DNA of 27,113 nucleotides, from positions 1-27,113 of IMG/VR virus record IMGVR_UViG_3300046009_008966; one strand, written 5' to 3'. The stretch's first letter is position 1, and each line of letters starts with the position of its first letter. Positions 3,422-22,173 of this stretch are shown here, piece after piece. A program made the translations under genes and the position numbers. The notes under the pieces were generated by a model. The model ran no database searches and was not told the origin of the DNA. It was given only the letters and a program-made list of their open reading frames with translations. Origin of the DNA: a virus.

Positions 3422-3431
3422 ATATGTATAA
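3422..3431 (+). promoter_or_regulatory. ATATGTATAA, variant of the recurring upstream motif
   Basis: Differs at one position from the ATATTTATAA element seen seven times here and is likewise followed by TAAAA. It lies 10 bases before the endonuclease ATG and just after a terminator. The ATG at 3424 is inside the motif, which argues against it as the start. Confidence 0.5.
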
Positions 3432-3441
3432 TAAAAACAAC

Positions 3442-4059: not shown

Positions 4060-4060
4060 T

Positions 4061-5422
4061 ATGAATAAATATACTAAAAAAATTGTAATTATTGGAGGAG
4101 GAGTAGCAGGGGCACATGCTGTAACAAAATTAATAGATAATGGCTACCCTGGAGAACTTATTACTATCATTGATATGGGAAAAGACCCATACCAACGTAA
4201 ACCTGAAGAAGTAATGTCAGGATGGCTAGGGAGTGGAGGGTTCTCTGATGGCAAATTAACCTATCATCATATGATTGGTGGTCAATTATCAAAATATTGC
4301 GGTAAAGAAAAAGCATACCAATTAATGAATGAAGTTATAGAAACATGGAAACGATTTCATCCTGATCCATCTAAAATTATGTACTCCAACCCTACCGAAG
4401 AGCCAGATTTCATTAAACCTTATTTCGGTTTACGTTTATTTGGGGTATATCATATTGGTACCGATTATCTCCACGAAATAGGAAAAAGATGGTATGATTA
4501 TTTAGTGTCTAAAGGAGTTAAGTTTGTATGGGAACGAAAAGTAGAATGGATCAATTTTAATAATAGTACCTTATTTTATAAAACATTAGATTCAATAGGT
4601 GGTTTAACTGTAGAATATGATGAACTCATCTTTGCAGTAGGCAAATCAGGCATTGACTTTGCCCAATCCCTCGCAAAACAATATGAACTCCCAGATGAAC
4701 CAAAATCAGTACAAATTGGAGTTCGCTTTGAAGCACCACAACACCATTTCCAAAAACTAATCGATATATCATATGATTTCAAACTTTATAGAAAATTTGA
4801 AGATAAAGGCGTTTCACTTCGCTCTTTTTGTACAAACAATAATGCAGCGTATGTTGCCGTAGAAGAAACATACGGCGATATTAGCTATAATGGACACGCT
4901 AAAAAAGATCCAAGATACAAAAATGACATGACTAATTTTGGTATTTTGATGGAAATTAATGGTATTGAAGATCCATTTGAATGGTCCCGCAATGTTGTTA
5001 ATCAATGTAACTTATCTGTTAATATTCCGGCATCTTATTCCCCCACAAAAGAAAATCTTTTATATAAAGCTGGTTTATATTATAGTCCTGGTTTTAGAGA
5101 ACCATCATTCACTTCTGAAAACGAGCCTGTTCGCGTTATAAGATTAACCGAACTTAGCAAAGTAGAAGAAATATTTCAAGGATACTTTAGCTATATTACA
5201 GATTTTATTGACGATATGAAAAAAGTATTTCCAACATTAGAAGATGATTGGGGGATATACATTCCTGAGGTAAAATATCTAAGCCCAGAACCTCTTGTAA
5301 ATTACAATGACTTATCATTAACAAAATACCCAAATGTGCACTTTATAGGTGATGCTTTATCAGCTCGTGGTATAACAGTTTCAGGAGCTCATGGTATTTA
5401 TGTAGCGGAAAGCTTAATTTAA
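4061..5422 (+). CDS. FAD-dependent oxidoreductase, COG2509-like
   Basis: 453 residues from the ATG at 4061, one base after the endonuclease stop; an in-frame ATG at 4034 would overlap that gene. The N-terminus has a Rossmann dinucleotide motif G12-G-G-V-A-G17 in IVIIGGGVAGAHA, followed by an acidic residue at the end of the second strand (TIIDMG). A second signature, LGSGGFSDGKLTY, matches the GxxGxFSDGKL stretch of COG2509 FAD dehydrogenases. The C-terminus has the FAD-closing motif FIGDALSARGITVSGAHG. Length is close to the bacterial family. The substrate is unknown. No membrane segment is seen, so it is probably cytosolic. This is an unusual gene for a phage structural region and a candidate auxiliary metabolic gene. 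It may be co-transcribed with its neighbours. Confidence 0.85.
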   Translation: MNKYTKKIVIIGGGVAGAHAVTKLIDNGYPGELITIIDMGKDPYQRKPEEVMSGWLGSGGFSDGKLTYHHMIGGQLSKYCGKEKAYQLMNEVIETWKRFHPDPSKIMYSNPTEEPDFIKPYFGLRLFGVYHIGTDYLHEIGKRWYDYLVSKGVKFVWERKVEWINFNNSTLFYKTLDSIGGLTVEYDELIFAVGKSGIDFAQSLAKQYELPDEPKSVQIGVRFEAPQHHFQKLIDISYDFKLYRKFEDKGVSLRSFCTNNNAAYVAVEETYGDISYNGHAKKDPRYKNDMTNFGILMEINGIEDPFEWSRNVVNQCNLSVNIPASYSPTKENLLYKAGLYYSPGFREPSFTSENEPVRVIRLTELSKVEEIFQGYFSYITDFIDDMKKVFPTLEDDWGIYIPEVKYLSPEPLVNYNDLSLTKYPNVHFIGDALSARGITVSGAHGIYVAESLI

Positions 5423-5747: not shown

Positions 5748-6278
5748 ATGAAAATAGGATTTGCAGGAACTGTCTCGGTAGGCAAAACAACTTTAGTTAA
5801 TGCTTTAAAAGAGCATCCATCATTTCAACATTACAATTTCGCTACTGAACGTTCAAAATATTTGAATAGTTTAGGTATTCCATTGAACACAGATTCAACA
5901 CTTAAAGGACAGTTAATATTTTTAGCTGAGCGTTCTGCTGAATTAATGAATGATTATATTATAACAGACAGAACAGTTATTGATGTAATGGCATTTAGTC
6001 ATTGTTCTAATTCTATGACTCCTTATGAAAAAGAAACATTTGAAAATGTAGCTAAATTCTTAATAGAAGAATATGATTACATATTTTATGTTTCTCCTCA
6101 AGGAGTAGAAATAGAAGATAATGGTATTAGAGAAACTAATGAACAGTATAGAGAACAAATAGATACTACTATTTCATATATGCTAAGATTATATGGGCAT
6201 CGTGCCAAAAATATTATAGACATATCAGGCTCAACAGAGGAACGCATTAAGCAAGTTGTAAAACATGTTCTTTCCTAA
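5748..6278 (+). CDS. P-loop NTPase, small-molecule-kinase-like (AAA_28 type)
   Basis: 176 residues. The Walker A motif is G7-T-V-S-V-G-K13-T-T near the N-terminus. TERSKYLN (about residues 34-41) and IITDRTVIDVMAFS (about 71-84) match the base/substrate site and DR motif of nucleoside- and NadR-type kinases. EYDYIFYVSP gives the Walker-B-like strand, and NGIRETNEQYREQID looks like the LID with its catalytic arginines. Length fits small nucleotide kinases. Phages often carry such proteins for nucleotide metabolism or nicotinamide nucleotide salvage. Which substrate is used cannot be told from sequence. It is the first gene of a unit that runs on into the terminase operon. Start: no Shine-Dalgarno, with AT-rich sequence before the ATG. 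Confidence 0.8.
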   Translation: MKIGFAGTVSVGKTTLVNALKEHPSFQHYNFATERSKYLNSLGIPLNTDSTLKGQLIFLAERSAELMNDYIITDRTVIDVMAFSHCSNSMTPYEKETFENVAKFLIEEYDYIFYVSPQGVEIEDNGIRETNEQYREQIDTTISYMLRLYGHRAKNIIDISGSTEERIKQVVKHVLS

Positions 6279-6307: not shown

Positions 6308-7048
6308 ATGAAAATATCGGAATTAAAAAAATATATTAAAGAAGCTATCTTAGCTGAGTTAACAGTTACAAGTGATAAGAATACTGTTAAAAAACTTGCT
6401 GATCAAGGAATAGGTGTTACTTTTAACCCTAAAGCTAAAGATGAAAACAATTTAACTGAAATGGCCAAAATTGCTGGTGATTTAAAAACTGCTATTGAAG
6501 CAGTTATAGAAAAGAACCCTGAATTAACTGGATTAGATTTGAAAAAAGCAATTAAATCAGACTCAGATGTAAAAACAGCATTAGGTGGAGAATCACTTTT
6601 TGCTAATCAATTAAACCGATTTATAGATTTAGTTAAAGGTGAAAGAGAATTAAGTCAACGTGGTAGAAAACCAAACCCAAATACAGCAACTAAAAAATCA
6701 GAAGAAGATAAAAAAGATGAAAAACGTGGTAGAAAACCAAAACCAGAAGACGAAGATATAGAAATAGAATACACATATGGCCAACCAGATCCCGAAGACA
6801 TATCAAATGATAAAGAGCCATTACAAGTCAAAGACGATCCTTTTATTAAAAGAGAAAAAGGACAAATAGCTACTATTCAGGCCACATTAAAAGCTAACGC
6901 TAAAAAAACAATGGAGTATATCAAAACCCCAGAAAATAAAAGAACACCTGAACAAAAAGCTCATTTGAAAAAAATGGCTGATTTAACAAAAAAGTTAAGA
7001 AAATTAAAGAACCCAACTTTACAATCATTGATTGGGGATGAAGACTAA
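6308..7048 (+). CDS. Putative internal head protein with two AT-hook-like motifs
   Basis: 246 residues, highly charged and Lys/Glu-rich. The N-terminus MKISELKKYIKEAILAEL contains I10-K-E12 and L-A-E, both fits to the T4-type prohead protease consensus. Two RGRKP motifs (residues 118-122 and 140-144), each with acidic or basic flanks, resemble AT-hook minor-groove binders. A helical C-terminal part (about 185-246) carries many lysines. It immediately precedes the membrane-anchored protein and terminase. It could be a packaged DNA-binding head protein. It might also stand in for a small terminase subunit (none is recognised), though it is larger than T4 gp16. I do not recognise the family with certainty. 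The 3' end overlaps the next gene by 11 bases. Confidence 0.7.
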   Translation: MKISELKKYIKEAILAELTVTSDKNTVKKLADQGIGVTFNPKAKDENNLTEMAKIAGDLKTAIEAVIEKNPELTGLDLKKAIKSDSDVKTALGGESLFANQLNRFIDLVKGERELSQRGRKPNPNTATKKSEEDKKDEKRGRKPKPEDEDIEIEYTYGQPDPEDISNDKEPLQVKDDPFIKREKGQIATIQATLKANAKKTMEYIKTPENKRTPEQKAHLKKMADLTKKLRKLKNPTLQSLIGDED

Positions 7049-7622
7049 GATACCATATTATATTATAATAATATTTTTAATAGGAGTTATTATTTACTTA
7101 CTTACTTTACCTCCTGATATTAAAGAGGGTACTGTAATTACAAAGAAAACTATTGAGATGATACCTGTTACAATTGAAACACCGGTATATGTCCCAAAAT
7201 ACAGGACTCGTGTTGATACTATAACAGATATAGACACATTTATTGCATCTCAAGGTCCTATTGATACTAGCGAAATATTAAAAGATTATTATTCAACATA
7301 TGCTTATCAAGATACCATTCAAATTGATACATTTGGTAATATAATAGTAAAAGATACTATAACAAAAAATTATATTTTAGCTCGCAAAGTTCAATCAAAT
7401 TTAGAAATACCTAAAATTACAATTGAAAATACTGTTTATATAAATAATAGAGAATGGTATGCTGGTATAGGATTAGTTGGAGGTACAAATCAAATTAGTT
7501 ATATTGGTGCGGAAATGTTATACAGAACCAAGAAACGCAAAGCAATTGGAATAGGATTAGGAGTAAATCAAGATTTATTTCCACAAGCCTCGTTTAAATT
7601 GTTTTGGAAAATAGGCAAATGA
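7038..7622 (+). CDS. Membrane-anchored phage protein of unknown role
   Basis: 194 residues from the ATG at 7038; the upstream TTG at 7032 is less likely. Residues 7-24 (YYIIIIFLIGVIIYLL) form one clear transmembrane helix after a short basic start, predicting a cytoplasmic N-terminus and a large external or periplasmic part. That part is rich in Thr/Ile/Val/Asp in alternating strands (VDTITDIDT, DTIQIDTFG, VKDTITKNY). The C-terminus (REWYAGIGLVGG... to FKLFWKIGK) reads like short beta-barrel strands ending in aromatics. Similar single-TM proteins (DUF6549/DUF6808-like) are frequent in Bacteroidetes phages. A lysis role such as a spanin is possible but not shown; no lysin is visible. It overlaps both neighbours (11 and 4 bases), so it is coupled to terminase. 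Confidence 0.7.
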   Translation: MKTKIPYYIIIIFLIGVIIYLLTLPPDIKEGTVITKKTIEMIPVTIETPVYVPKYRTRVDTITDIDTFIASQGPIDTSEILKDYYSTYAYQDTIQIDTFGNIIVKDTITKNYILARKVQSNLEIPKITIENTVYINNREWYAGIGLVGGTNQISYIGAEMLYRTKKRKAIGIGLGVNQDLFPQASFKLFWKIGK

Positions 7623-9190
7623 GTGAACAACAAAATATAAAAGAAATACTCAAACAAGAGTATATAAAATGTGCTACAGATCCTGGCCATTTTATGCGCA
7701 AATATTGCCATATCCAACATCCGCAAAGAGGTAGAGTATTATTTAATCTATATCCTTTTCAAGATAAAGTATTAAAATTATGGAAAGAAAATCCATACTC
7801 TATAGTACTTAAATCAAGGCAGTTAGGTATATCAACATTAGCCGCAGGGTATTCTTTATGGTTAATGACTTTTCATAAAGATAAAAATGTACTTTGTATA
7901 GCTACAAAGCAAGAGACCGCACGTAATATGGTAACCAAGGTTAAGTTTATGTATGATAACTTACCATCATGGTTAAAGGTAGGAGCTGATGAAAATAATA
8001 AACTTTCATTGCGTTTAAGTAATGGCTCAATAATCAAAGCAACCTCTGCGGCTAGTGATGCTGGTCGATCAGAAGCAGTATCATTACTACTAGTGGATGA
8101 GGCAGCATTTATTGAAAATATTGGAGAAATATGGGCCTCAGCACAACAAACTTTAGCAACAGGTGGTGGGGCGATTGTGTTATCTACGCCATACGGAACA
8201 GGTAACTGGTTTCATCAAACATGGGTTAGAGCAGAGCAAGCAGACAACGATTTTTTACCTATTAAATTACCTTGGTATGTTCACCCCGAGCGAGATGAAT
8301 CTTGGAGAAAACGACAAGATGATTTATTAGGTGATCCTAGACTAGCAGCACAAGAATGTGATTGTGACTTTAACACATCTGGAGATGTAGTATTCTATAA
8401 TGAATGGATAGATTTTATTAAATCTACTACCATTAAAGATCCAATGGAACGCAGAGGAGCAGACCAGAATATATGGATATGGGAATCAGCAGATTATACT
8501 AGAGAATATATGGTAGTAGCGGATGTAGCTAGGGGGGATGGCAAAGACTTTTCTGCATTTCATGTAATTGATATAGCAACAAATTCTCAAATAGCAGAAT
8601 ATAGAGGCCAAATAAGCCCAAAAGAATTTGGTTATATGCTAGTTGCTATTGCTACTGAATATAACAATGCATTACTTGTTGTAGAAAATGCATCAATTGG
8701 ATGGGCTACTTTAGATTCTATTATTGAAAGAGGATATAGAAATTTATATCATTCGCCTAAATCCGATCAACTCACCGCAGAATCATACTTAAAAATATAT
8801 GAAGGGGATTCAAACATGACTCCTGGATTTACAATGTCTTTACGAACTCGTCCTCTTGTAATAAATAAAATGAGAGAATATATTGGAGACAGAAGTGTTA
8901 CAATACAATCCAAACGTTTACTAGAAGAAATGAAAGTATTCGTTTGGAAAAATGGTAGACCTGAGGCTCAACCCGGATATAATGATGATTTAGTGATGTC
9001 TTTTGCTACGGGAATGTTTTTGAGAGACACTTCATTAAAATTTCAACAACAAAGCTTAGATATGACTAGAGCCGCGCTTGGTGGTATTAGAAAAAACACA
9101 ACAGTAGGAGCATATAGCCCAAATACCACAAGAAACCCATATACAATAGAAACAAAATACGGGCAAGAAAACATTAATTGGCTTCTATAA
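7619..9190 (+). CDS. Terminase large subunit, T4 gp17-like
   Basis: 523 residues from the ATG at 7619, which overlaps the previous stop as ATGA; a TTG at 7604 is rejected. This is the packaging motor: ATPase plus nuclease. The ATPase domain has the P-loop K65-S-R-Q-L-G-I-S-T73, where the usual lysine before S/T is replaced by Ile and a lysine opens the motif. Walker B is LLLVD160-E161, and the coupling motif is LSTPYGTGN (188-196). The RNase-H-like nuclease domain has D302 in VVADVARGDGKDFS, E356 in LLVVENA, and D456-D457 in GYNDDLV, the three expected acidic groups. T4 gp17 is 610 residues, so this is shorter. The portal gene follows at once. No tail sheath or tube genes intervene, unlike T4. 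Confidence 0.95.
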   Translation: MSEQQNIKEILKQEYIKCATDPGHFMRKYCHIQHPQRGRVLFNLYPFQDKVLKLWKENPYSIVLKSRQLGISTLAAGYSLWLMTFHKDKNVLCIATKQETARNMVTKVKFMYDNLPSWLKVGADENNKLSLRLSNGSIIKATSAASDAGRSEAVSLLLVDEAAFIENIGEIWASAQQTLATGGGAIVLSTPYGTGNWFHQTWVRAEQADNDFLPIKLPWYVHPERDESWRKRQDDLLGDPRLAAQECDCDFNTSGDVVFYNEWIDFIKSTTIKDPMERRGADQNIWIWESADYTREYMVVADVARGDGKDFSAFHVIDIATNSQIAEYRGQISPKEFGYMLVAIATEYNNALLVVENASIGWATLDSIIERGYRNLYHSPKSDQLTAESYLKIYEGDSNMTPGFTMSLRTRPLVINKMREYIGDRSVTIQSKRLLEEMKVFVWKNGRPEAQPGYNDDLVMSFATGMFLRDTSLKFQQQSLDMTRAALGGIRKNTTVGAYSPNTTRNPYTIETKYGQENINWLL

Positions 9191-9199
9191 TATTTATAA
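9190..9199 (+). promoter_or_regulatory. ATATTTATAA upstream motif
   Basis: Exact match starting on the last base of the terminase stop codon, followed by CAAAA, and ending 9 bases before the portal ATG at 9209. Confidence 0.6.
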
Positions 9200-9208
9200 C
9201 AAAAAACA

Positions 9209-11098
9209 ATGGCAGATAAAAGTTTATTCACCCGATTACAGCGTCTATTTTCAACGGATGTTATTATTCGTAATCAAGGAGGGAACCAATTAAAAGTAAT
9301 AGATGTTGACTCTATTCAAACATCCGGGGATGTAGCAACAAACTCTATAATGGACAGATATAATCGTCTATACTCTCCATCCTCTACCTCCTTATTTGGG
9401 CAACAATTAAACATAAACTACCAATATCTTCGTACCATGATCTACTCAGATTATGATACTATGGATTATGATGCTATTGTTTCTTCTGCTTTAGATATTA
9501 TATCTGATGAATGTACTTTAAAAAATGATATGGGAGAAGTACTCCAAATCAGAAGCTCAAACGAAGACATACAAAAAATATTATATAATTTATTTTATGA
9601 TGTATTAAATATTGAATTTAATTTATGGTCTTGGATTCGCCAAATGAATAAATATGGTGATTTTTTCTTAAAACTTGAGATAGCTGAAAAATTTGGAGTA
9701 TATAATGTTATTCCTTATATGGCATATCATATTCAAAGGCAAGAAAATTATGATCCTGAACATCCAAATGCTGTAAGATTTAAATACTCTCCTGAAGGAT
9801 TTTATTCGGGGGGGTCCGGGTATTATGGTGTACCTAATACATTTGAAAAAGATCAAAATGCTATATATTTTGATAATTACGAAATGGCCCATTTCAGGTT
9901 ACTAACAGATGTTAATTATCTTCCATATGGTCGTTCATATCTAGAACCTGCTCGTAGGCTATTCAAACAATATATTCTAATGGAAGACGCGATGCTAATT
10001 AACAGAATAGCCCGCAGTCCGGATAGAAGAATATTTTATATTAATGTTGGTTCTATCCCTCCTGCTGAAGTAGAAAATTTTATGCAAAAAACTATTTCAA
10101 CATTAAAACGTACTCCATTAATTGACCACGAAACCGGCCAATATAATCTAAAATACAATATGCAAAACTTACTTGAGGATTTTTATATCCCTGTAAGAGG
10201 CAATGATACTGTAACTAAGATTGACACTGCTCAAGGCTTACAATTTGATGGTATTACAGACGTAACATATTTAAGAGATAAATTATTTGCTGCCCTTAAG
10301 GTGCCCAAAGCATTTATGGGGTACGAAAAAGATTTAACCGGTAAAGCAACATTAGCTGCTGAAGATATTAGATTTGCTCGCACAATTGATAGAATACAAC
10401 GCATTGCTCTTTCAGAATTATATAAAATAGCATTAGTACATCTTTATGCCCAAGGATATAATGGAGACGAATTAACAAACTTTGAGCTAGACTTAACAAC
10501 GCCCTCGATCATTTATGATCAAGAAAAAATAGCATTGTTAACCCAAAAAGTGGACCTAGCTCAAAAAATCTTAGAAACCAAATTACTTCCTAGTGATTGG
10601 ATTTACGATAATATCTTCCATTTAAGTGAAGATCAATATGAAGAATATAGAGACTTAATTATTGAAGATCAAAAACGTGCCTTTAGAAATAAACAAGTAT
10701 CTGAAGAAGGAAATGATCCTAAAATAACAGGAAAATCATATGGAACACCTCATGATCTTGCTTCTCTATATGGTAGAGGAAGATATGAAGATAATTCTGT
10801 TCCTGAAGGATATGATGAAAAAGTACCATTAGGCCGCCCTCAAGAAAAATCTACAAACAGAAACTCTCAGGAAAGCCCATTTGGAAAAGACCGATTAGGT
10901 AATAAAGGTGCAAAATTTGATGATAATGAATCAGATGATATACGCCCTCAATACAAAGGAGGCTCACCTTTAGCTTTAGAAGCAAAACAAATATATTTAA
11001 AAAATAAAAGTCTTATAGAAAGCCTAGCAAAAAGATCAAGTACTAGTAAAAAGAATGAAGAAATCTCATTTCTAGACGAAAATAACATAATGGAGTAA
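9209..11098 (+). CDS. Portal protein, T4 gp20-like
   Basis: 629 residues. The portal forms the dodecameric ring at the head vertex through which DNA passes. The sequence matches T4-type portals in order: NSIMDRYNRLYS and YDTMDYDAIVSSALDIISDECT near the N-terminus; a central wing region with FWSW-like aromatics (FNLWSWIRQMNKYGDFFLKLE); RIARSPDRRIFYINVGSIPP; and the stem/crown segment FMQKTISTLKRTP ... LQFDGITDVTYLRDKLFAALKVPKAFMG. The following ATLAAEDIRFARTIDRIQ is also typical. T4 gp20 is 524 residues. The extra length is a polar, Gly/Lys-rich C-terminal tail from about residue 500, probably disordered. The start follows the motif at 9190 and has no Shine-Dalgarno. Confidence 0.93.
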   Translation: MADKSLFTRLQRLFSTDVIIRNQGGNQLKVIDVDSIQTSGDVATNSIMDRYNRLYSPSSTSLFGQQLNINYQYLRTMIYSDYDTMDYDAIVSSALDIISDECTLKNDMGEVLQIRSSNEDIQKILYNLFYDVLNIEFNLWSWIRQMNKYGDFFLKLEIAEKFGVYNVIPYMAYHIQRQENYDPEHPNAVRFKYSPEGFYSGGSGYYGVPNTFEKDQNAIYFDNYEMAHFRLLTDVNYLPYGRSYLEPARRLFKQYILMEDAMLINRIARSPDRRIFYINVGSIPPAEVENFMQKTISTLKRTPLIDHETGQYNLKYNMQNLLEDFYIPVRGNDTVTKIDTAQGLQFDGITDVTYLRDKLFAALKVPKAFMGYEKDLTGKATLAAEDIRFARTIDRIQRIALSELYKIALVHLYAQGYNGDELTNFELDLTTPSIIYDQEKIALLTQKVDLAQKILETKLLPSDWIYDNIFHLSEDQYEEYRDLIIEDQKRAFRNKQVSEEGNDPKITGKSYGTPHDLASLYGRGRYEDNSVPEGYDEKVPLGRPQEKSTNRNSQESPFGKDRLGNKGAKFDDNESDDIRPQYKGGSPLALEAKQIYLKNKSLIESLAKRSSTSKKNEEISFLDENNIME

Positions 11099-11994: not shown

Positions 11995-12565
11995 ATATAA
12001 ATTAAAAGAAACAAATACTATAGCTAGTACTTCTGGTTTTACATCCGGAACTACAGGTGAAAATATTGCTACTCCTAGAGCATTTAAAAAATCTACAAAA
12101 GGAAATTATGGAGCATATACTCAAGTAGGATATAAACCAGTTAAAGAAGGCCCTGGAGCTAATATGGGCCCTGGTCCTAAAGCTGGTCCTAAAGGAGTAA
12201 CAGATAATACTTATGTAAAAACATTTAAATATAAATTAGTAAACCAACCTGCTTTAAACAAAGCAGCTAAAGGTATTGAAGTTAAACAATTATGGGAAAC
12301 TATAGAAGTAGAAGATTATCTAAATGCTTTAAATATATCTGACCCTTCAAGAAGAGAATTTTTAACACAACGCTTAGAAGGATTCAATATCTTAGAAAAA
12401 AAACTAAATCAATTAGTTCCATTATTGCAACAAGCAAGAAATAAAACCCTAGATTACTATAAAAATAACCCCAAATCATACGCCGTCATCTATTCAACTG
12501 ATTCTACAAACGAATTACTAGATGACATCATTAATTCATTCACCCCAGAAGACAATATAAAATAA
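11981..12565 (+). CDS. Unknown head-region protein with Gly/Pro-rich linker
   Basis: 194 residues from the ATG at 11981; an ATG at 11963 would extend the overlap with the previous gene. Residues 1-75 are low complexity and basic (MGKHKYKLKETN, then FTSGTTGENIATPRAF and a Gly/Pro/Lys linker GPGANMGPGPKAGPKG). Residues 95-190 are helical: KQLWETIEVEDYLNALN, then RREFLTQRLEGFNILEKKLNQLVPLLQQ. The disordered-then-helical layout suits a minor core or scaffold-associated protein, but I do not recognise the family. The stretch SGFTSGTTGEN is similar to SGYSVGTTGEN near residue 68 of the major capsid protein; this may be chance. Confidence 0.65.
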   Translation: MGKHKYKLKETNTIASTSGFTSGTTGENIATPRAFKKSTKGNYGAYTQVGYKPVKEGPGANMGPGPKAGPKGVTDNTYVKTFKYKLVNQPALNKAAKGIEVKQLWETIEVEDYLNALNISDPSRREFLTQRLEGFNILEKKLNQLVPLLQQARNKTLDYYKNNPKSYAVIYSTDSTNELLDDIINSFTPEDNIK

Positions 12566-12572
12566 TAATAAA

Positions 12573-12851
12573 ATGGCAGTAATAAATCAATTTTCAAACC
12601 CTTTTGGACTAGGTGGGGGAATATACTTATCTGGCTCAATAAGTGCTTCGGTAGCTTATAGCTTTGTTTATTATCCTATTACTACTACTGTAGCTAATAT
12701 TAAAATGAATAATATAACCAATGGCTCTTCTATTACTGGATCTTTTAGCCCAGGAATACCAATATATGGAACAATAACTCAAGTAACCCAATCATCAGGA
12801 ATTGCTTTTGTATATAGTGCTATACAAGACGCCTTAGACCCAGCTATATAA
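12573..12851 (+). CDS. Small beta-rich putative structural protein
   Basis: 92 residues, no cysteine, rich in Ser, Ile, Gly and Thr. The start MAVINQFSNPFGLGGGIYLSG is Gly-rich. The rest alternates short strands (SASVAYSFVYYPITTT, NITNGSSITGSF) with turns, typical of a small virion-surface or decoration protein. It begins 7 bases after the previous stop and ends 2 bases before the LamG-like gene, so the three are translated as a run. Not recognised. Confidence 0.6.
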   Translation: MAVINQFSNPFGLGGGIYLSGSISASVAYSFVYYPITTTVANIKMNNITNGSSITGSFSPGIPIYGTITQVTQSSGIAFVYSAIQDALDPAI

Positions 12852-12853
12852 AA

Positions 12854-13651
12854 ATGTTAGGATTTGGATTAAATCTTATTAATAATTCTTTTGAACCTTT
12901 TGGGGGGGCAGTGCGAGACTCTCTACAATTTTATGTAGACGGTGCTTTTTTTAATGGAGGGAGAGTATGGTACGATATAAGCGGGAACGAATATACTAGT
13001 TCTCTTAATTCATCTGCTTCTCCTGGTGTTTTTCCTTCATACACTTCAAGTTTTGGGGGAGGAATAACATTCACTACAGCTTCTCGCCAGTTTGCTACTA
13101 CTGGTAATATTTTACAATATACTACTCAAGAATCGTTTACAATGAATGTAGTGGCCCAAGTTACTAGAGTAGGAGATGGAACTACTACTGCTCAAAATAC
13201 TCCGGTATGGGGGCGAGGCTCTTTCTCTAATTCTGTAGGAATAGGTGCTCAGACAGACACAGGACCAGTAATAAAATTTAGGATGGGGGCACGAACCGGA
13301 TCAGATGCTACTTCTGATAAGTCTATTCTTTGGCCTAACGTAGGAATAAATACTTCACTTGCCTATAATCTTTGTGTAGTATATGATGGTGGTTCCCAAT
13401 TATTAACAAATGACCCTAAAGTATATGCCTATGCAAATGGGGAATTAGTATACTCATCCTCAGTACTAGAAGGAGGCCCAGGAGCCTTTGATACTGATGG
13501 TTATGCTTCTTTCCAATTAGAATCAGTAACAGGAGGAAACGCAGTATCCGGCTCAGGAGTTATATATGTAGCTAGTGTTTATGGAAAAGCATTATCAGCA
13601 GCTGAAATATCTCAAAATTATAATGCTATTAAAACTAGATTTAATCTATAA
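12854..13651 (+). CDS. LamG / concanavalin-like lectin-fold protein
   Basis: 265 residues. After a Gly-rich start (MLGFGLNLINNS, FEPFGGAVRDSL), it follows the pattern of LamG-like (Laminin_G_3) domains: LQFYVDGAFFNGGRVWYDISGN near the start; a central strand ESFTMNVVAQV; NLCVVYDGG then VYAYANGELVYSSS; and the ending VYGKALSAAEISQNYNAIKTRF, very like the usual final helix of this fold. Such domains bind glycans or act as structural caps. Placed among head genes, it may be a decoration or adhesin on the capsid rather than a tail fibre, which is an inference. T4 places Hoc and Soc elsewhere and neither has this fold. No signal peptide is seen. Confidence 0.75.
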   Translation: MLGFGLNLINNSFEPFGGAVRDSLQFYVDGAFFNGGRVWYDISGNEYTSSLNSSASPGVFPSYTSSFGGGITFTTASRQFATTGNILQYTTQESFTMNVVAQVTRVGDGTTTAQNTPVWGRGSFSNSVGIGAQTDTGPVIKFRMGARTGSDATSDKSILWPNVGINTSLAYNLCVVYDGGSQLLTNDPKVYAYANGELVYSSSVLEGGPGAFDTDGYASFQLESVTGGNAVSGSGVIYVASVYGKALSAAEISQNYNAIKTRFNL

Positions 13652-13660
13652 AAAATTATA

Positions 13661-13670
13661 ATATTTATAA
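13661..13670 (+). promoter_or_regulatory. ATATTTATAA upstream motif
   Basis: Exact match ending only 2 bases before the ATG at 13673. This spacing is too short for a usual promoter plus ribosome site. Confidence 0.5.
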
Positions 13671-13672
13671 TC

Positions 13673-14527
13673 ATGAAAACATTACAAAATCAATATATCG
13701 AAATTACAGAGGGTAAAGGAAATAAAGATCATTTTCTAAAACAAGCCCGCTACTTGTTCCCTGAACTTATTACTGTAAATAGCACATTTAAAGATACTAT
13801 TAAAATATTAAAAGGTAAAAGTATCCTAACAGAAGCAGTAGGCGGTATTGCAACACAAAACCCAAACAAACCAGATTGGTTTAAAATTTTTAATACAAAC
13901 ATAAAAGAAGCTGTAGGTGTTAAAGATAAAAAAGAATATGGTGATCAAAATACATTTGAGAAAATAGATAAAGATGTAGCTAAAGATTTAGAAAGCAATT
14001 TTGATAATAGCGATCCTAAAAATATAGACAATGTTTATGGTCAATCATTTTTAATGGGATATTTAGCTGAAATGGATGACCCTAAAAATGCTGATAAAAC
14101 TGTAGACGAATTGAAAAAAATTGTAGCCAAAAATATGGCTCAAGATATTAATTACTATGCTAAAAACGGAATGTTTGGTGTTAAGGGAATTGGTTTAGAA
14201 ACGTCTAAAGAACCTAAAGCACCAACAGGCAAATACAAGTCAAGTGGGTATGGTAATTTAAAAGAAAATAAACTCCGCTCTATCATCAGTGCTATCATTA
14301 GAGAAGAATTAAAAAATGAGTCTTATGACTATGAAACCCAAGCTGATTTAAGGGGCATGGCAAACGAAGAATCTTTAGCACAAGCTATAAAGTTAGCTAA
14401 AGCAATATCAAGAGAAGGAGTAGTACAACACGTTAACCAACGAGAAGATGGTTCCTATGAAGTATCAGATTGGTACGATTCAGACACAACTGTCTTTTCA
14501 TACGTAAACGGAGAAGAAAAAATATAA
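13673..14527 (+). CDS. Head-associated protein, possible protease substrate
   Basis: 284 residues. The N-terminus MKTLQNQYIEITEGKG has I11-T-E13 followed by G, a fit to the T4-type I/L-x-E cleavage rule; another, ILTEA, follows at about residues 50-56. The next segment KDHFLKQARYLFPELI recurs in phage proteins beside prohead protease genes, as far as I recall. The middle is Lys/Asp-rich. A Gly/Lys linker (TGKYKSSGYGNLKENK) leads into a helix ENKLRSIISAIIREELKN and a small C-terminal domain ending in YVNGEEKI. It lies 1 base before the protease gene, matching the site of T4 core proteins. It is probably an internal head or core protein; function is not established. Confidence 0.72.
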   Translation: MKTLQNQYIEITEGKGNKDHFLKQARYLFPELITVNSTFKDTIKILKGKSILTEAVGGIATQNPNKPDWFKIFNTNIKEAVGVKDKKEYGDQNTFEKIDKDVAKDLESNFDNSDPKNIDNVYGQSFLMGYLAEMDDPKNADKTVDELKKIVAKNMAQDINYYAKNGMFGVKGIGLETSKEPKAPTGKYKSSGYGNLKENKLRSIISAIIREELKNESYDYETQADLRGMANEESLAQAIKLAKAISREGVVQHVNQREDGSYEVSDWYDSDTTVFSYVNGEEKI

Positions 14528-14528
14528 T

Positions 14529-15131
14529 ATGAGACAGGTACTCATAGAAACCATCCCATTCAACGTATCTCCTGTTCAACTAACAGAAGGTATGAGAGCC
14601 CCATCAGGTAATCCGATGGTTGAAGGTATATTAGCTACAGCCGAAGTAAAAAACGGAAATGGCAGATACTACTCTAAAGATTTATGGGAACGCGAAATTG
14701 ATAAATACCAACAAGTTGTTAAAGAAAATAGAGCAACAGGAGAACTTGATCACCCTGAATCTTCAATCATAAACCTAAAAAATGTATCCCATATTATTAG
14801 AGAAATTTGGTGGAATGGCGATAAAGTACTAGGTAAAATAGAAATACTCCCAACTACTTCCGGTAATATTCTAAAAGCATTAATCGAAAATAATGTTATG
14901 GTTGGTGTTTCGAGTAGGGGGATGGGTTCATTAAAAGAAATAGGCGAAACATTAGAAGTACAAGACGATTTTGAATTACTGGCATGGGATTTTGTTTCTA
15001 CACCTTCTAACCCAGGTTCATACATGCACCTAATTAAAGAAGGCAAAGAAAACAACACTAACCCCTACTCAAAAGTAAATAGCATCCTCACAGATATCCT
15101 CTGTGCAAATGGAACTTGCCCTCTTTTTTAA
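14529..15131 (+). CDS. Prohead core protease, T4 gp21-like
   Basis: 200 residues (T4 gp21 is 212). This serine protease sits in the prohead core and cuts scaffold and capsid proteins after I/L-x-E during maturation. Candidate catalytic residues are H75 in GELDHPESS, S128-S129 in VGVSSRGMG and D154 in LLAWDFVSTPS. The motif NGNGRYYSKDLWE (about 42-54) is typical of the family. Candidate self-cleavage sites are L18-T-E20|G and I-K-E near residue 171. It precedes the scaffold and capsid genes as in T4, but an HNH endonuclease and a terminator separate them. The start is 1 base after the previous stop. Confidence 0.92.
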   Translation: MRQVLIETIPFNVSPVQLTEGMRAPSGNPMVEGILATAEVKNGNGRYYSKDLWEREIDKYQQVVKENRATGELDHPESSIINLKNVSHIIREIWWNGDKVLGKIEILPTTSGNILKALIENNVMVGVSSRGMGSLKEIGETLEVQDDFELLAWDFVSTPSNPGSYMHLIKEGKENNTNPYSKVNSILTDILCANGTCPLF

Positions 15132-15159
15132 CCCAACATAATTTTTCAAAATCTTTATA

Positions 15160-15169
15160 ATATTTATAA
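15160..15169 (+). promoter_or_regulatory. ATATTTATAA upstream motif
   Basis: Exact match with a partial extra copy (CTTTATAA) just upstream, ending 3 bases before the HNH gene ATG at 15173. Confidence 0.5.
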
Positions 15170-15172
15170 TAG

Positions 15173-15853
15173 ATGAAAAAATTATGTCCTACTTGCAAAC
15201 AAGAAAAAACTTTAGATAGTTTTAATAAGAACAAAACACGTAAAGATGGTTATCAACGTGAATGTAGAGAATGTTGTCATTCTCACCACAATAAACATTA
15301 CCATACTAAAAAATCTCCTCGATTAAAAGAAAATTTAAAAGAGGGATATAAAATATGTACTAGCTGCAATAAAGAATTACTATTTGCTAATTTTAATAAA
15401 CAAAAAGGGGGAAGATTTGGAATTAGCGGAGAATGCAAATCTTGTCTTTACTTTAGAAATAAAATATGGAAAGAAAATGGAGGAAAAGAATGGGAAAATA
15501 AGTGGTCTAAACTACAAAGACAAACCAACCCTCAATGGAAACTAAAAGCTAATCTTAGAAGTAGATACTTAGATGCGTTGAAACGCCATACCCGCGGAGG
15601 AAAAGTAAACAAATACCATTCAGCAATTGAATTGTTAGGATGTGATATAGAATTTTATAAACAGTATTTAGAACAACAATTTAAACCTGATATGACTTGG
15701 GAAAACCATGGAACATTATGGGAAATAGACCATATAAAACCATGCGCCGCCTTTGATTTAACAAATAAGCAACAACAACAAGAATGCTTTATCTATACAA
15801 ATACCCAACCATTATATTACTCAGATAATAGAATTAAAAAGGACAAATTTTAA
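15173..15853 (+). CDS. HNH homing endonuclease with two zinc ribbons
   Basis: 226 residues. The N-terminus has two zinc-ribbon-like units: C5-P-T-C8 with C31-x2-C34, and C62-T-S-C65 with C88-x2-C91, probably for DNA binding. The HNH nuclease is C-terminal: E184-I-D186-H187-I-K-P-C, then FDLTNKQQQQECF and YTNTQPLYYSDNRIKKD with N210 and N219, matching the H-N-N/H pattern. Catalytic residues look intact. It is a free-standing mobile endonuclease inserted between prohead protease and scaffold, with its own ATATTTATAA element and a terminator right after it. It does not interrupt either neighbour. Confidence 0.9.
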   Translation: MKKLCPTCKQEKTLDSFNKNKTRKDGYQRECRECCHSHHNKHYHTKKSPRLKENLKEGYKICTSCNKELLFANFNKQKGGRFGISGECKSCLYFRNKIWKENGGKEWENKWSKLQRQTNPQWKLKANLRSRYLDALKRHTRGGKVNKYHSAIELLGCDIEFYKQYLEQQFKPDMTWENHGTLWEIDHIKPCAAFDLTNKQQQQECFIYTNTQPLYYSDNRIKKDKF

Positions 15854-17098: not shown

Positions 17099-18832
17099 AT
17101 GTCACAAGTACAGCAATTATTAGAATCCGCAGCTGGCACGTGGAAAAATCTACAAAGCGACGCTGCTAAATTGGCCGGCAAATGGTCAAAAACAGGTCTC
17201 CTAGAAGGTCTAGATGAGATCAACAGAAACAATATGTCCCTATTGTTAGAAAATCAAGCCAAGCAATTGGTACTTGAATCTAACCAAATCACCTCTAACT
17301 CAGGATACAGTGTAGGAACAACAGGTGAAAACTGGGCAGGTATTGCTCTTCCTTTAGTGAGAAAAGTATTCGGTACTATCGTAGCTAAAGAATTCGTTTC
17401 TGTTCAACCTATGAACATGCCTTCAGGTCTTGTGTTCTTCTTAGATTTCCAGTATGGAAATACAAAGAATCCATTTACCTCAGGTCAATCTTTATATGGC
17501 CAAAGAAACTCATCAGGTCAATTCCCGTTCCAAACTACTGCAACTGATGGTGGTTTATATGGTGCTGGTAGATTTGCATATTCTACTAACCAGTTCTCCT
17601 CTTCAGTATGGGTATCTGCTTCTGTAAACAACATTTCTCCTACATTAGCGGCCGGTACCGGTAGTGTAGTATCTGCATCTTGGGCAGAATTAAATTTTGA
17701 TTCTACTTATTCTGCTTCCGCAGTTTCTGGTCAGATCTATAAATACACTATATCTGGTTCAACTATTAGTAATGTCTTTGATGAAGATGGTGTTAGAGCA
17801 TTTATCTTAACAAGTGGTTCATTATTTACTTCTGCAAGTATTTTACAGCAATTTACCACTTATAATTACACTGCAAATAGTATTTCATTCTTCTTTACAA
17901 GTTCTGCTAACTTTGTTGGAATTACTGCTGGAAATAATGCCTTTACTGTATTCTACAACAAAGCTACTAACTTGAACAACGAAACCTTAACCGGTAACGA
18001 TCAAAGAGGTGATTTTGAAGCAGATAGAACAGATGTATCTGTACCTAACAGCTTAAATGCTACCCAAATCGTCATCCCTGAGATTAACGTTAGAATGCAA
18101 TCTCAGCCTATCACAGCTAAAACCAAGAAATTGAAAGCTGTATGGACGCCTGAATTTGCACAAGACTTGTCTGCTTATCAGAACATCGATGCTGAAGCTG
18201 AATTAACAAACATCATGAGCGAGTATATTTCTATGGAAATTGACCTCGAAATTCTTGATATGTTAATTGAAGATGCAGCTGCTGGTACTGAATATTGGTC
18301 AGCTCTTAATAATCAGATTATTAATTCTACAGGTACCGCATTTGTAAACAACACAAGTGCTTTCTACAACACCCAAGGTCAGTGGTTCCAAACTCTTGGT
18401 ACTAAAGTACAAAAACTTAGTAACAGAATCCACCAGTTAACCTTGAGAGGTGGTGCTAATTTCATCGTTACTTCTCCAACTGTAGCAACTATCCTTGAAT
18501 CAATTCCTGGATTTGCTTCTACAAGCAATGGCGAAGCTGACCAAATGGAATATGCGTTTGGTGTTCAGAAAATGGGTTCATTAAACAGCCGCTATAAGGT
18601 TTACAAGAACCCATACATGACTGAAAACTTGATGTTGATGGGCTACAAAGGATCTCAGTTCCTAGAAACAGGTGCTGTATTTGCTCCTTATATCCCATTA
18701 ATCATGACTCCTCTTGTGTACGATCCTGATACCTTTACTCCAAGAAAAGGTCTATTGACTCGCTACGCTAAGAAGATGTTACGCCCTGAGTTCTATGCTA
18801 AGATTTATGTTAGTGGTTTAACCACTATCTAA
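17099..18832 (+). CDS. Major capsid protein, T4 gp23-like
   Basis: 577 residues (T4 gp23 is 521). The N-terminal propeptide contains GTWKNL and L-L-E sites. By eye, alignment to gp23 places the maturation cut near E60 (LVLE|SNQI), close to E65 in T4, although the residue three before the cut is Val rather than Leu/Ile. Strong gp23-type blocks follow: GIALPLVRKVFGTIVAKEFVSVQPMNMPSGLVFFLDFQYG, then in the C-terminal half MQSQPITAKTKKLKAVWTPEFAQDLSAYQNIDAEAELTNI, and NRIHQLTLRGGANFIVTSP. The ending FYAKIYVSGL is also family-like. Residues about 150-290 are a Ser/Thr-rich insertion-like region, probably surface-exposed. A strong terminator follows. Confidence 0.95.
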   Translation: MSQVQQLLESAAGTWKNLQSDAAKLAGKWSKTGLLEGLDEINRNNMSLLLENQAKQLVLESNQITSNSGYSVGTTGENWAGIALPLVRKVFGTIVAKEFVSVQPMNMPSGLVFFLDFQYGNTKNPFTSGQSLYGQRNSSGQFPFQTTATDGGLYGAGRFAYSTNQFSSSVWVSASVNNISPTLAAGTGSVVSASWAELNFDSTYSASAVSGQIYKYTISGSTISNVFDEDGVRAFILTSGSLFTSASILQQFTTYNYTANSISFFFTSSANFVGITAGNNAFTVFYNKATNLNNETLTGNDQRGDFEADRTDVSVPNSLNATQIVIPEINVRMQSQPITAKTKKLKAVWTPEFAQDLSAYQNIDAEAELTNIMSEYISMEIDLEILDMLIEDAAAGTEYWSALNNQIINSTGTAFVNNTSAFYNTQGQWFQTLGTKVQKLSNRIHQLTLRGGANFIVTSPTVATILESIPGFASTSNGEADQMEYAFGVQKMGSLNSRYKVYKNPYMTENLMLMGYKGSQFLETGAVFAPYIPLIMTPLVYDPDTFTPRKGLLTRYAKKMLRPEFYAKIYVSGLTTI

Positions 18833-19162: not shown

Positions 19163-19801
19163 ATGCCAAATTTACCAATATCCCAATTACCAGCAGCTGG
19201 TACTTTAACAGGACCAGAATTATTTGCTATCGTACAAGATGGTGTCACTAAACAAACTACCCTTGATGGAATTATATATGCCCAAGGAAATACTTATGGG
19301 TTATTTGCTCAAACCGATGATAGTACCCCAATAACAGGTACTACTGCAGAATTATCTTTAATAAATGGGGGGATAGGTACATTAACTGTACCCGCAAATG
19401 GATTTCAAATAGGTGATAGTTTTAGAGCAGATTTTGGTGGTCTACTTTCATCTAAAAATAATGATACTATACGAATTAGAATTAAAGCAGGTTCTGTAAT
19501 TCTAGCAGATAGTGGAACCCAAACCATGTCAACAGCCACAAACGATGTTTGGCAATTTTCTATTAATTTTACAGTTAGAACTTTAGGAGTAGCAGGTGTT
19601 GCATCAATTGTATCTCTTGGAGTATTTCATACTACAAAGCAATCTAACGGCGCCCCACAAGGATTCGCCTTTAATACAGTTAATAGTTCTAGTTTTGATA
19701 CTACAATTAGTAATACTTTAAATGTTACTGCCCAATTCAGCTCAAATGATGCATTAAATTCAATATACACAGACATATTTGTATTGAATAAAATTTACTA
19801 A
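19163..19801 (+). CDS. Phage tail or fibre-type structural protein
   Basis: 212 residues. The N-terminus PISQLPAAGTLTGPELFAIVQDGVTKQTTL is a pattern common at the start of phage tail-fibre and baseplate-attached proteins (ISQLPxxxxLtgxelxxvvQxGxTxqtT). From about residue 55, a single beta-rich domain follows (GTTAELSLIN, IRIRIKAGSVIL, NVTAQFSSNDALNSIYTDIFVLNKIY) that looks like a small jelly-roll receptor-binding or decoration domain. No cysteine cluster or membrane segment. It is 2 bases after the previous gene and is followed by a 73-base gap before the enzyme cassette. Confidence 0.75.
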   Translation: MPNLPISQLPAAGTLTGPELFAIVQDGVTKQTTLDGIIYAQGNTYGLFAQTDDSTPITGTTAELSLINGGIGTLTVPANGFQIGDSFRADFGGLLSSKNNDTIRIRIKAGSVILADSGTQTMSTATNDVWQFSINFTVRTLGVAGVASIVSLGVFHTTKQSNGAPQGFAFNTVNSSSFDTTISNTLNVTAQFSSNDALNSIYTDIFVLNKIY

Positions 19802-19844
19802 TTTAATTTTTTTATAACTTTCTGTACTTATAGGTATTTTTACT

Positions 19845-19854
19845 ATATGTATAG
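19845..19854 (+). promoter_or_regulatory. ATATGTATAG, variant of the recurring motif
   Basis: Nine of ten bases match ATATGTATAA. It lies in the gap at 19802-19874, 20 bases before the pentein ATG. No terminator is seen in this gap. Confidence 0.4.
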
Positions 19855-19874
19855 GAAACATAAAAATAGTTACA

Positions 19875-20789
19875 ATGAAAGAAACACCTTCACAGTTGCC
19901 ATTACAAAGTTATGTAATGAATTTCCCCTTTACTCTATCCACAGAAACTCCTAATAATGCTTGGATGGAAGAATTATCTCCTAAAGATTTACATATAAAC
20001 AAACGTAAAGCTTACAAACAATTTATGGATTTGTATAACTTTATGGCAGGACAATCTTTAGTGTATTTATTACCTTCAAAAGGTAATTTTCAAGACCAAG
20101 TATATGTTGCTAATTTAGGAATATATTTACCTCATATCGAAGGAGAAAACCACATTATATTATCTAATTTTACATCTAAACCAAGACAAGGTGAAGAGCT
20201 TATAGGACAAGAATTTTTTACACAACTTGGTTATACAGCAGCTATCTGCCCATTTAAATGGGAAGGCGAAGCTGATCTGAAATATCTATATGATAACATT
20301 TATATTGGAGGATATGGTATTAGATCTGAACTAGAAGCATACAAATGGATGGAAGAATCATATGACATGAAGATTATACCTGTTAATATGGTAGATAATT
20401 ATTTATATCATTTAGATTGCTCTATATTTACATTAAATTGTGAACAATCTCTCATATGCACTGAATTATTTGAAATCGAAGAACTCAAAGAAATAGAAAA
20501 ACACACAGAAATCATATCTGTCAGCACAGACGATGCCTTATGTGGCATCACAAACTCAGTTAGACTAGGTAATATGGTACTATGTGCTTCTAATATTCAC
20601 GAAATGAAACACACAGATGAATATTATCAAGAGGAAAAAAACAAAATAGCAACATTAGAAAAAGTATGCTCTGATGCAGCTATGGAGCCTGTATTTTTTA
20701 ACCTATCTGAGTTTATGAAATCAGGAGCATTGTTGTCCTGTATGGTAATGCATTTGAATAGAGTAGATCACAATAAAATCCTACTTTAA
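19875..20789 (+). CDS. Pentein-superfamily hydrolase/amidinotransferase (COG1834-like)
   Basis: 304 residues. Penteins act on guanidine groups (arginine, methylarginines, agmatine) through a Cys-His pair. The N-terminus PFTLSTETPNNAWM matches the N-P/A-WM start of dimethylargininase-like proteins. E130-G-E-A-D134 in KWEGEADLKYL is the acidic substrate-binding patch, followed by IYIGGYGIRSELEAY. H179 in YLYHLDCSIFTLN is the catalytic His, and C289 in SGALLSCMVMHLN near the C-terminus is the nucleophile. All expected active-site positions look intact, so the enzyme is probably active, but the substrate is unknown. No signal peptide or membrane segment. The stop overlaps the next ATG by one base, coupling it to the decarboxylase-like gene. 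Unusual for a phage. Confidence 0.85.
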   Translation: MKETPSQLPLQSYVMNFPFTLSTETPNNAWMEELSPKDLHINKRKAYKQFMDLYNFMAGQSLVYLLPSKGNFQDQVYVANLGIYLPHIEGENHIILSNFTSKPRQGEELIGQEFFTQLGYTAAICPFKWEGEADLKYLYDNIYIGGYGIRSELEAYKWMEESYDMKIIPVNMVDNYLYHLDCSIFTLNCEQSLICTELFEIEELKEIEKHTEIISVSTDDALCGITNSVRLGNMVLCASNIHEMKHTDEYYQEEKNKIATLEKVCSDAAMEPVFFNLSEFMKSGALLSCMVMHLNRVDHNKILL

Positions 20790-21508
20790 TGGCACAGAAA
20801 CTTGACGAATGGCTAAATGGCGAAGTTGCTGAACTATGTAAACTTCCTGTAGGAACTTTAAGTAATACTTTTTTCTTTAGAGACCCTGCCCGCCCTAACT
20901 ACACAGATTATACTCATTTCTTTGCACCAGCAGATGGCACTATATTATATCAAAAATATATTTACAATCCTAAAGAACCAGTAATAGAAATTAAAGGCGT
21001 AGAGTATACACTACAAGAAGTAATGTGCGACCCTGATTACAATAAACCATCGTTAGTAATCGGTATATTCATGTCATTTTACGACCCTCATATCATTCGC
21101 ATACCCTACCGCGGCACAATAAAATATGCGCATATAGACAGTATAGAATCATATAATATGCCAATGTTAGCGGTTGAAAAGGATTTATTACGTAAAGTTA
21201 TAAATCCAAATAATTTAGGTTATTTAAAAAATAACGAAAGAATGAAAATATCTGTTGAATCAAATCCATTGAATTATCAATATACAATGTGTTTAGTTGC
21301 AGATGAAGATGTAGATGTTATAGCTCCCTTTAAAGAACAACAAGAACTTTGTAATCAAAATGAAAGATTTGGATTAGTTAGATGGGGAAGTCAAACCGAA
21401 TTAATTTTACCATTTGACGATAGATTCGAATTTGAGTTATGTCAAGAAGATCATACCCACATTCAAGCAGGGTTAGATCCTTTGGTAAAATTAAATTTTA
21501 ATTTATGA
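20789..21508 (+). CDS. Phosphatidylserine-decarboxylase-like enzyme
   Basis: 239 residues. The protein matches the short, soluble PSD branch (archaetidylserine-decarboxylase-like) in order: FFFRDPARPNYTDYTHFFAPADG with D49; IKGVEYTL; IGIFMSFYDPHIIRIPYRGTI with H101 in H-x-x-R-x-P; NNERMKISVES; CLVADEDVDVIAPF; and NERFGLVRWGSQTELILPF with the self-cleaving G200-S201. In this family the serine becomes the pyruvoyl cofactor after cleavage, giving an alpha and a beta chain. The D, H and S needed for this appear present. There is no transmembrane segment, unlike some bacterial PSDs. The substrate may be phosphatidylserine or a related amino acid. It overlaps the pentein gene by 1 base and PhoH by 4. 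Confidence 0.85.
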   Translation: MAQKLDEWLNGEVAELCKLPVGTLSNTFFFRDPARPNYTDYTHFFAPADGTILYQKYIYNPKEPVIEIKGVEYTLQEVMCDPDYNKPSLVIGIFMSFYDPHIIRIPYRGTIKYAHIDSIESYNMPMLAVEKDLLRKVINPNNLGYLKNNERMKISVESNPLNYQYTMCLVADEDVDVIAPFKEQQELCNQNERFGLVRWGSQTELILPFDDRFEFELCQEDHTHIQAGLDPLVKLNFNL

Positions 21509-22173
21509 AAGAACCCAACAGGGAACGAAAAAGAGAAATAAAATCCATAAGCGCCGTGCAACTAAATCAAGAACAAAAAGAAGCAAAACAATTAATAATG
21601 GACAACCAAGTTGTTGTCATTACAGGTAGGGCAGGTAGCGGAAAGAGTTTAGTTTGTGCACAAGCCGCCCTAGACTTTCTTAAAAAGAAACAAATTAAAT
21701 GTATCTATAATACTAGAGCCGCTATCGAAGTTGGAAAATCACTAGGATATCTTCCCGGAGCTCTAAACGAAAAATTTGATCCTTATATGGAAGCTCTTGT
21801 AGAAAATCTAAGTAAATGTTGTACTAATAAAGATGAAGTTCCTAAATTAATACAAGAAGAAAAGGTTAAAGCTTTACCGGTGCAATTTATCCGAGGTAAA
21901 ACTATAGAAGACATATTAATTGTAGAAGAAGCTCAAAATTTAACCAAAGCTGAAATGTTAGCTATTTTAACTCGTTTAGGAAAAACTGGAAAAATAGTAA
22001 TAAATGGCGATAACGAACAAACCGATATAAGAACCCCAACTGGAGAAATAAATGGTTTATCATATGCTATTGAACTTTCTAAAAAAATAGAAGAAATCAA
22101 ATGGATTAAATTAAAAGAAAATCATAGATCTGATTTGGTTGGGAAGATATTAGACTATGAATATGGAGGTTAA
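21505..22173 (+). CDS. PhoH-like ATPase
   Basis: 222 residues. Walker A is G41-R-A-G-S-G-K47-S48 and Walker B is DILIVEEAQN (about 136-145), the VEEAQN form typical of PhoH. Other family blocks include NTRAAIEVGKSLGYLPG (about 69-85, with a KFDPYMEAL region after it), KALPVQFIRGKTIED, and NGDNEQTDIRTP (sensor-like). PhoH proteins are P-loop ATPases, often linked to RNA metabolism, and are very common in marine phages; their phage role is unresolved. The N-terminal 20 residues are basic. The start overlaps the PSD-like stop as ATGA, so the three genes 19875-22173 form one coupled cassette. Confidence 0.92.
   Translation: MKEPNRERKREIKSISAVQLNQEQKEAKQLIMDNQVVVITGRAGSGKSLVCAQAALDFLKKKQIKCIYNTRAAIEVGKSLGYLPGALNEKFDPYMEALVENLSKCCTNKDEVPKLIQEEKVKALPVQFIRGKTIEDILIVEEAQNLTKAEMLAILTRLGKTGKIVINGDNEQTDIRTPTGEINGLSYAIELSKKIEEIKWIKLKENHRSDLVGKILDYEYGG

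Follow-up and report, generated by a model that had tools for sequence, protein, structure and literature searches.

We found that a T4-like virus record encodes two adjacent enzymes, a pentein and a short decarboxylase of the phosphatidylserine decarboxylase (PSD) family, whose genes are kept together far beyond chance and form a conserved module. The module is present in many phages from the sea and the gut and in a small number of bacteria. Our preferred interpretation, which we consider somewhat probable, is that the pentein converts arginine to ornithine and the PSD-fold decarboxylase then converts ornithine to putrescine. Because the pair looks like an arginine-to-putrescine route, the product of the phage "phosphatidylserine decarboxylase" is probably an amine rather than a membrane lipid. 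We see about an even chance that the two genes constitute a complete, undescribed arginine-to-putrescine pathway whose parts travel together among bacteria and phages that are not related. The observations comprise the fold families of the two proteins, their conserved residues, their pairing and their operon contexts.

Organization of the locus

The window analyzed here is a complete IMG/VR virus record of 27,113 bases that encodes T4-type terminase, portal, protease and major capsid proteins. The pentein and PSD-family genes sit between the capsid gene and a neck gene, and a PhoH gene comes after them.

17099..18832, + strand: T4-type major capsid protein, a neighbor (PHROG 138, 9e-72)
19875..20789, + strand: pentein, arginine dihydrolase (ArgZ/AgrE)-like, 304 aa (NCBIfam 7e-23; PDB AgrE/ArgZ; PHROG 12759, 3e-60)
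20787..20791, + strand: TAATG stop/start junction, a one-base overlap coupling the pentein and PSD-family genes (from the sequence)
20789..21508, + strand: short soluble PSD-family (PF02666) predicted pyruvoyl decarboxylase, 239 aa (Pfam 1.4e-22; PHROG 12670, 1e-29)
21505..22173, + strand: PhoH-like ATPase, a neighbor outside the conserved pair (Pfam PhoH, 2.6e-50)

An initial annotation of this DNA had reported that these reading frames overlap, first by 1 base and then by 4, and the window sequence agrees. The 4-base overlap between the PSD-family ORF and the start of PhoH is present in the window but is not a general feature. The PhoH-like gene of most relatives is just 33-44% identical, its match begins further downstream, and the spacing varies. 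A search around the genes for TATAAATA, the late-promoter motif of T4, was uninformative (124 matches found, 123 expected by chance).

The pentein resembles arginine dihydrolases

The best NCBIfam profiles for the pentein were arginine dihydrolase (7e-23) and dimethylargininase (1e-22), and its only significant sequence relatives in the PDB were AgrE (1e-16) and ArgZ. A Pfam search returned no match for the pentein up to E 1, agmatine deiminase (PF04371) included. Its AlphaFold2 model (pLDDT 88) was closest to ArgZ (VIA Z 32.4, 263 residues, 2.0 Å), and Foldseek matched the model to ArgZ/AgrE structures at 3.4e-19. Lower VIA Z scores were obtained for succinylarginine dihydrolase (AstB, 26.9), DDAH (25.5), arginine deiminase (25.3) and agmatine deiminase (~20). 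Sequence and structure therefore both uphold the pentein assignment made in the initial annotation.

The protein shares with ArgZ/AgrE (Sll1336, Alr4995; PDB 6jv0, 6lrh) the pentein fold, a Cys/His/Glu center, the equivalent of Asn71 and two conserved arginines. It differs from them in being a stand-alone protein with ~24% identity whose gene is coupled to a decarboxylase gene; it stops at 304 aa and lacks the C-terminal ornithine cyclodeaminase domain. Against the curated arginine dihydrolase equivalog NF052232 it scored 81 bits, where the cut-off is 450, and we therefore do not class it as an ArgZ ortholog.

We counted residue conservation over 102 distinct pentein/PSD gene pairs. The pentein positions of interest were as follows.

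20112..20114, + strand: N80, aligned with N71 of ArgZ/AgrE, the dihydrolase asparagine (Asn in 101/102, Ser in one)
20184..20186, + strand: R104, equivalent to AgrE R90, predicted alpha-carboxylate contact (invariant, 102/102)
20322..20324, + strand: R150, equivalent to AgrE R139, second predicted alpha-carboxylate contact (invariant, 102/102)
20409..20411, + strand: H179, equivalent to AgrE H168, catalytic histidine (invariant, 102/102)
20739..20741, + strand: C289, at the C264 position of ArgZ/AgrE (named in PDB titles), nucleophilic cysteine (invariant, 102/102)

PDB entry 6juz is titled as ArgZ(N71S) with a trapped intermediate. E130 aligns with AgrE E118 and was also invariant (102/102). 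Three of the pentein residues highlighted in the initial annotation, C289, H179 and E130, are thus fixed, but D134 is not, being Asp in 93 sequences and Glu in 9. We take Asn at position 71 to be the mark of dihydrolases, with Asp at that position in DDAH and arginine deiminase. R104 and R150 presumably correspond to R85 and R132 of Pseudomonas DDAH, which hold the alpha-carboxylate. Because R104, R150 and N80 are invariant or nearly so, these residues point to free L-arginine as the predicted substrate and ornithine as the predicted product.

The partner is a short, soluble member of the PSD family

PF02666 was the sole Pfam family matched by the second protein (1.4e-22, 80.8 bits; gathering cut-off 22 bits), in line with its earlier assignment to the PSD family. 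GenBank and Pfam both label the phage protein as PSD. Its best score against the curated PSD equivalogs of NCBIfam was 64 bits, where the cut-off is 183. With both the pentein and the PSD-family protein scoring far below curated NCBIfam equivalog cut-offs, the substrate could have shifted. The active-site residues named in the initial annotation did not vary.

20933..20935, + strand: D49, catalytic aspartate of the PADG motif (invariant, 102/102)
21089..21091, + strand: H101, catalytic histidine (invariant, 102/102)
21386..21391, + strand: G200-S201, predicted self-cleavage and pyruvoyl site (invariant, 102/102)

The protein has no hydrophobic membrane helix: the highest 19-residue hydropathy was 1.07, located away from the N terminus. 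It may associate with membranes through an amphipathic surface.

Structural comparison gave a divided answer. Foldseek found no significant match in the PDB for the model (pLDDT 80), and a second look with VIA gave Z scores of 10.9 for E. coli PSD, 8.8 for PsiD and 8.0 for the arginine decarboxylase of Aspergillus oryzae (A. oryzae ADC). Support from structure is modest because the PSD rows in VIA were mixed with rows for other barrel folds, including IIA-Glc and peptidases. We took the likeness to IIA-Glc and peptidases as common barrel architecture.

The Asp/His/Gly-Ser site and the expected pyruvoyl cofactor are shared with the PSD family (PF02666; E. coli PSD 7cnx), PsiD and A. oryzae ADC. 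Unlike the PSD family, the window protein is short and soluble, lacks a membrane helix and occurs with a pentein. A. oryzae ADC is described as a pyruvoyl-dependent arginine decarboxylase of convergent origin (PMC12283126). PsiD acts on tryptophan and A. oryzae ADC on arginine; PSD-fold enzymes that use free amino acids therefore exist. The literature we searched contained no PSD-fold ornithine decarboxylase.

The pair is conserved across viruses

The initial annotation had treated the two genes as a coupled pair, and a survey for co-occurrence bore this out, with both genes together in T4-like loci, in Bacteroides and Campylobacter phages and in bacteria. The pentein gene was followed by the PSD gene in all 79 of the 79 assessable T4-like loci (window counted in). 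The two genes overlapped by one base in 74 loci, lay within three bases of each other in 4, and were separated by an insert of ~1 kb in the remaining one. Two more T4-like contigs stop 82 bases or less from the pentein and stand outside the 79. A wider scan yielded 251 viral stretches encoding pentein relatives. Viral scans that used one query sequence, either the PSD of the window or the pentein of Bacteroides phage DAC19, gave almost no matches because they covered short peptides only. Distances in the pentein and PSD trees were correlated (r 0.96 overall, 0.77 within the T4-like group).

Among 50,697 INPHARED records, 46 pentein and 45 PSD matches came from the same two groups, namely Bacteroides phages (6) and Campylobacter phages (40 for the pentein, 39 for PSD). 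The two genes are adjacent in DAC19 (MT074139.1), surrounded by DnaB-like, ligase and dUTPase genes. In Campylobacter phage NCTC12673 (Fletchervirus) they lie ~42 kb apart and both are retained; gp41 and gp45 flank the pentein gene, and the PSD gene adjoins GroES. We could detect no resemblance between the structural proteins of DAC19 and those of the marine T4-like group, so the two represent different phage lineages.

These contexts bear on a further argument of the initial annotation, which had connected polyamines to DNA packaging from the placement of the pair among virion genes. That argument does not carry over to other phages, with the genes located near replication or chaperone genes in DAC19 and Fletchervirus. 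Since the pair does not generally adjoin capsid genes, position does not support a role in packaging.

A phage-like contig in a verrucomicrobial genome (L232, G142:C341) carries a dUTPase-like gene, the pentein gene and the PSD gene in a row at 7015-9529; we called it phage-like from endolysin-like and dUTPase-like genes read by eye. DAC19 likewise has a dUTPase gene two genes upstream of its pair.

The phages encode few other polyamine genes. No PF02675 match, the family expected for AdoMetDC-derived pyruvoyl ODC/ADC, was present in the four phage genomes tested, and none of the tested phages matched PF02784. The remaining polyamine families that we searched were also missing from these phages, save for an agmatine-deiminase-like protein in DAC19. 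This PF04371 protein (agmatine-deiminase/PAD-like, 106338-107390, 6e-26) has an apparently intact GGCFNC motif and is encoded far from the pair.

Bacterial operons place the pair beside transport genes

A scan of 84,980 species genomes located the pair in 8 bacterial contigs, six from Verrucomicrobia and one each from Sulfurimonas and Methylococcaceae. The order is reversed in these contigs, with the PSD gene preceding the pentein gene, and the two are adjacent or overlapping. A MATE exporter gene is next in 7 of the 8, and a gene for a PotD/PotF-type (putrescine/spermidine-binding) protein comes after MATE in 5 of the 6 Verrucomicrobia. A representative binding protein matched PotD in NCBIfam (5.5e-53) and a polyamine-binding protein in the PDB (1.7e-58); MATE and PotD calls beyond the tested representatives were made by likeness to those. 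The pair is rare: with the seed genomes counted in, our samples had it in 2 of 289 genomes of Verrucomicrobiota and in 1 of 347 of Campylobacterota. A gene for a large sensor histidine kinase comes after the binding-protein gene at 12496-15177 of verrucomicrobial contig L121, with equivalents in L122 and L125, and may indicate polyamine sensing.

We searched the six verrucomicrobial carriers, which like the other bacterial carriers are MAGs that may be incomplete, for known polyamine genes. Profile searches found no AdoMetDC, arginase/agmatinase or agmatine deiminase, and no deoxyhypusine-synthase-like protein (PF01916). OKR-decarboxylase gave weak partial matches at most, and the PF02784 proteins, read by eye, were all diaminopimelate decarboxylases (LysA-type). 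With these families searched, the pair is the sole candidate for a putrescine route that we could find in the six genomes. The verrucomicrobial genomes also had no spermidine synthase at curated level, a point against the proposed pathway because it leaves the fate of putrescine in doubt. The Sulfurimonas and Methylococcaceae carriers encode SpeA and a PF04371 protein, and the pair is therefore not the sole putrescine route in those bacteria.

All eight bacterial carriers encode a second PF02666 protein, which scored 150-210 bits compared with 77-97 bits for the paired one. Phosphatidylethanolamine synthesis is therefore independent of the paired protein, each carrier having a separate, stronger-scoring PSD.

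Proposed pathway and alternatives

In the proposed pathway, C289 of the pentein would attack free L-arginine at its guanidinium carbon. Hydrolysis would take place twice, aided by H179, E130 and N80, and would release ornithine, CO2 and 2 NH3. The PSD-family protein would cut itself at G200-S201 to generate its pyruvoyl cofactor and would then decarboxylate ornithine to putrescine and CO2. During infection, host arginine would thereby be turned into putrescine (and ammonia) for the phage without PLP enzymes. We infer these substrates, the product, the order of the steps and their purpose in infection. The phage could possibly use putrescine in translation or on its packaged DNA, or could benefit from the release of ammonia. 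A joint role in amine or polyamine metabolism, one of two roles put forward in the initial annotation, is well supported by the binding-protein neighbors, the polyamine genes missing from six carriers, the dihydrolase features of the pentein and the precedent for amino acid decarboxylation on the PSD fold.

The two steps could also run in the opposite order, with the PSD-family protein acting as an arginine decarboxylase that makes agmatine and the pentein converting agmatine to putrescine or N-carbamoylputrescine. A. oryzae ADC provides a known PSD-fold arginine decarboxylase, the end product would still be a polyamine, and the genome context would fit equally well. We nevertheless consider this order unlikely: both predicted alpha-carboxylate-binding arginines of the pentein are kept in 102/102 sequences, and the fold's similarity to agmatine deiminases (Z ~20) is far below that to ArgZ (32.4).

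A second variant, which we judge quite improbable, has the pentein stop at citrulline and the PSD-like enzyme convert citrulline to N-carbamoylputrescine. Arginine deiminases also have the pentein fold, and one sampled pentein has Ser at the N80 column. Asn is kept at that column in 101/102, however, dihydrolases are the closest structures, and we recognized no N-carbamoylputrescine amidohydrolase by eye beside the pair.

There is similarly little probability that the PSD-like protein produces phosphatidylethanolamine or another membrane lipid in infection while the pentein acts separately. This model would agree with the Pfam and GenBank labels and with the interpretation of ocean viral psd as a lipid synthesis gene (PMC11360552). 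The absence of a hydrophobic segment or membrane helix, the higher-scoring PSD in all eight bacterial carriers and the strict pairing with an arginine-type hydrolase argue against it, and the membrane-phospholipid role that the initial annotation had also raised is disfavored on these grounds.

We assign the lowest probability to a role of the pair in modifying DNA bases (for example in a 7-deazaguanine or amino-acid-linked pathway, where the decarboxylase would act on an amino acid attached to the base): QueC is encoded by the five marine relatives tested and dADG is reported in some Campylobacter phages (PMC6884629), but DAC19 and NCTC12673 have the pair without QueC, and the bacterial operons hold transport genes and no base-modification genes that we recognized.

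Relation to known phage genes

Phage polyamine enzymes themselves are already known, and we regard the pair as a probable polyamine pathway of phages that combines enzymes in an unreported way. Li et al. 2023 characterized AdoMetDC-derived pyruvoyl ODC/ADC and PLP ODC from phages (PMC9992855). Those enzymes have other protein folds; what they have in common with the arginine-to-putrescine pair is a predicted rise of host polyamines and pyruvoyl chemistry. Neither phosphatidylserine nor dihydrolase is mentioned in their main text. An ocean AMG catalogue lists viral psd and amidinotransferase-type annotations and reads them as separate lipid and creatine genes and not as one arginine-to-putrescine module (PMC11360552); those entries may belong to the family described here. 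The literature we searched held no paper that describes the pentein-PSD pair or names both genes in Campylobacter phages.

If the arginine-to-putrescine reading is true, Campylobacter phages, Bacteroides phages and many ocean viruses have a compact, PLP-free route from arginine to putrescine in common. Ornithine decarboxylase would then have an additional, independent and convergent origin on the PSD fold. The database labels "phosphatidylserine decarboxylase" and "amidinotransferase" would need correcting, and viral psd genes in ocean catalogues may need rereading, as a widespread marine phage module would have been misread as lipid synthesis. Polyamine supply as a limit on phage growth or DNA packaging would become testable in culturable phages.

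Other features of the window and its relatives

The window also encodes an FAD-dependent dehydrogenase-like protein (4034-5422, + strand; PHROG 12409, 8e-20), a possible further partner of the pair. The marine T4-like relatives keep it, as does Campylobacter phage NCTC12673 (gp008), and it was not found in DAC19. Upstream of the terminase gene are a homing-endonuclease-like ORF (3424-4059, + strand; PHROG 314, 3e-8) and a gene for a thymidylate kinase-like protein (5748-6278, + strand; PHROG 2107, 1e-24).

Among the marine relatives, L042/G002 encodes QueC at 19222-19923 and, at 30845-32780, neighboring proteins of 96 aa and 544 aa that DAC19 also has. The two look like GroES/GroEL, a call based on the resemblance of the small DAC19 protein to the annotated GroES of NCTC12673. 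In a virus record of 268,739 bases (L003/G001), homologs of the T4-like terminase, portal, protease and capsid genes occur a second time at 228-238 kb, which suggests a chimeric or joined record.
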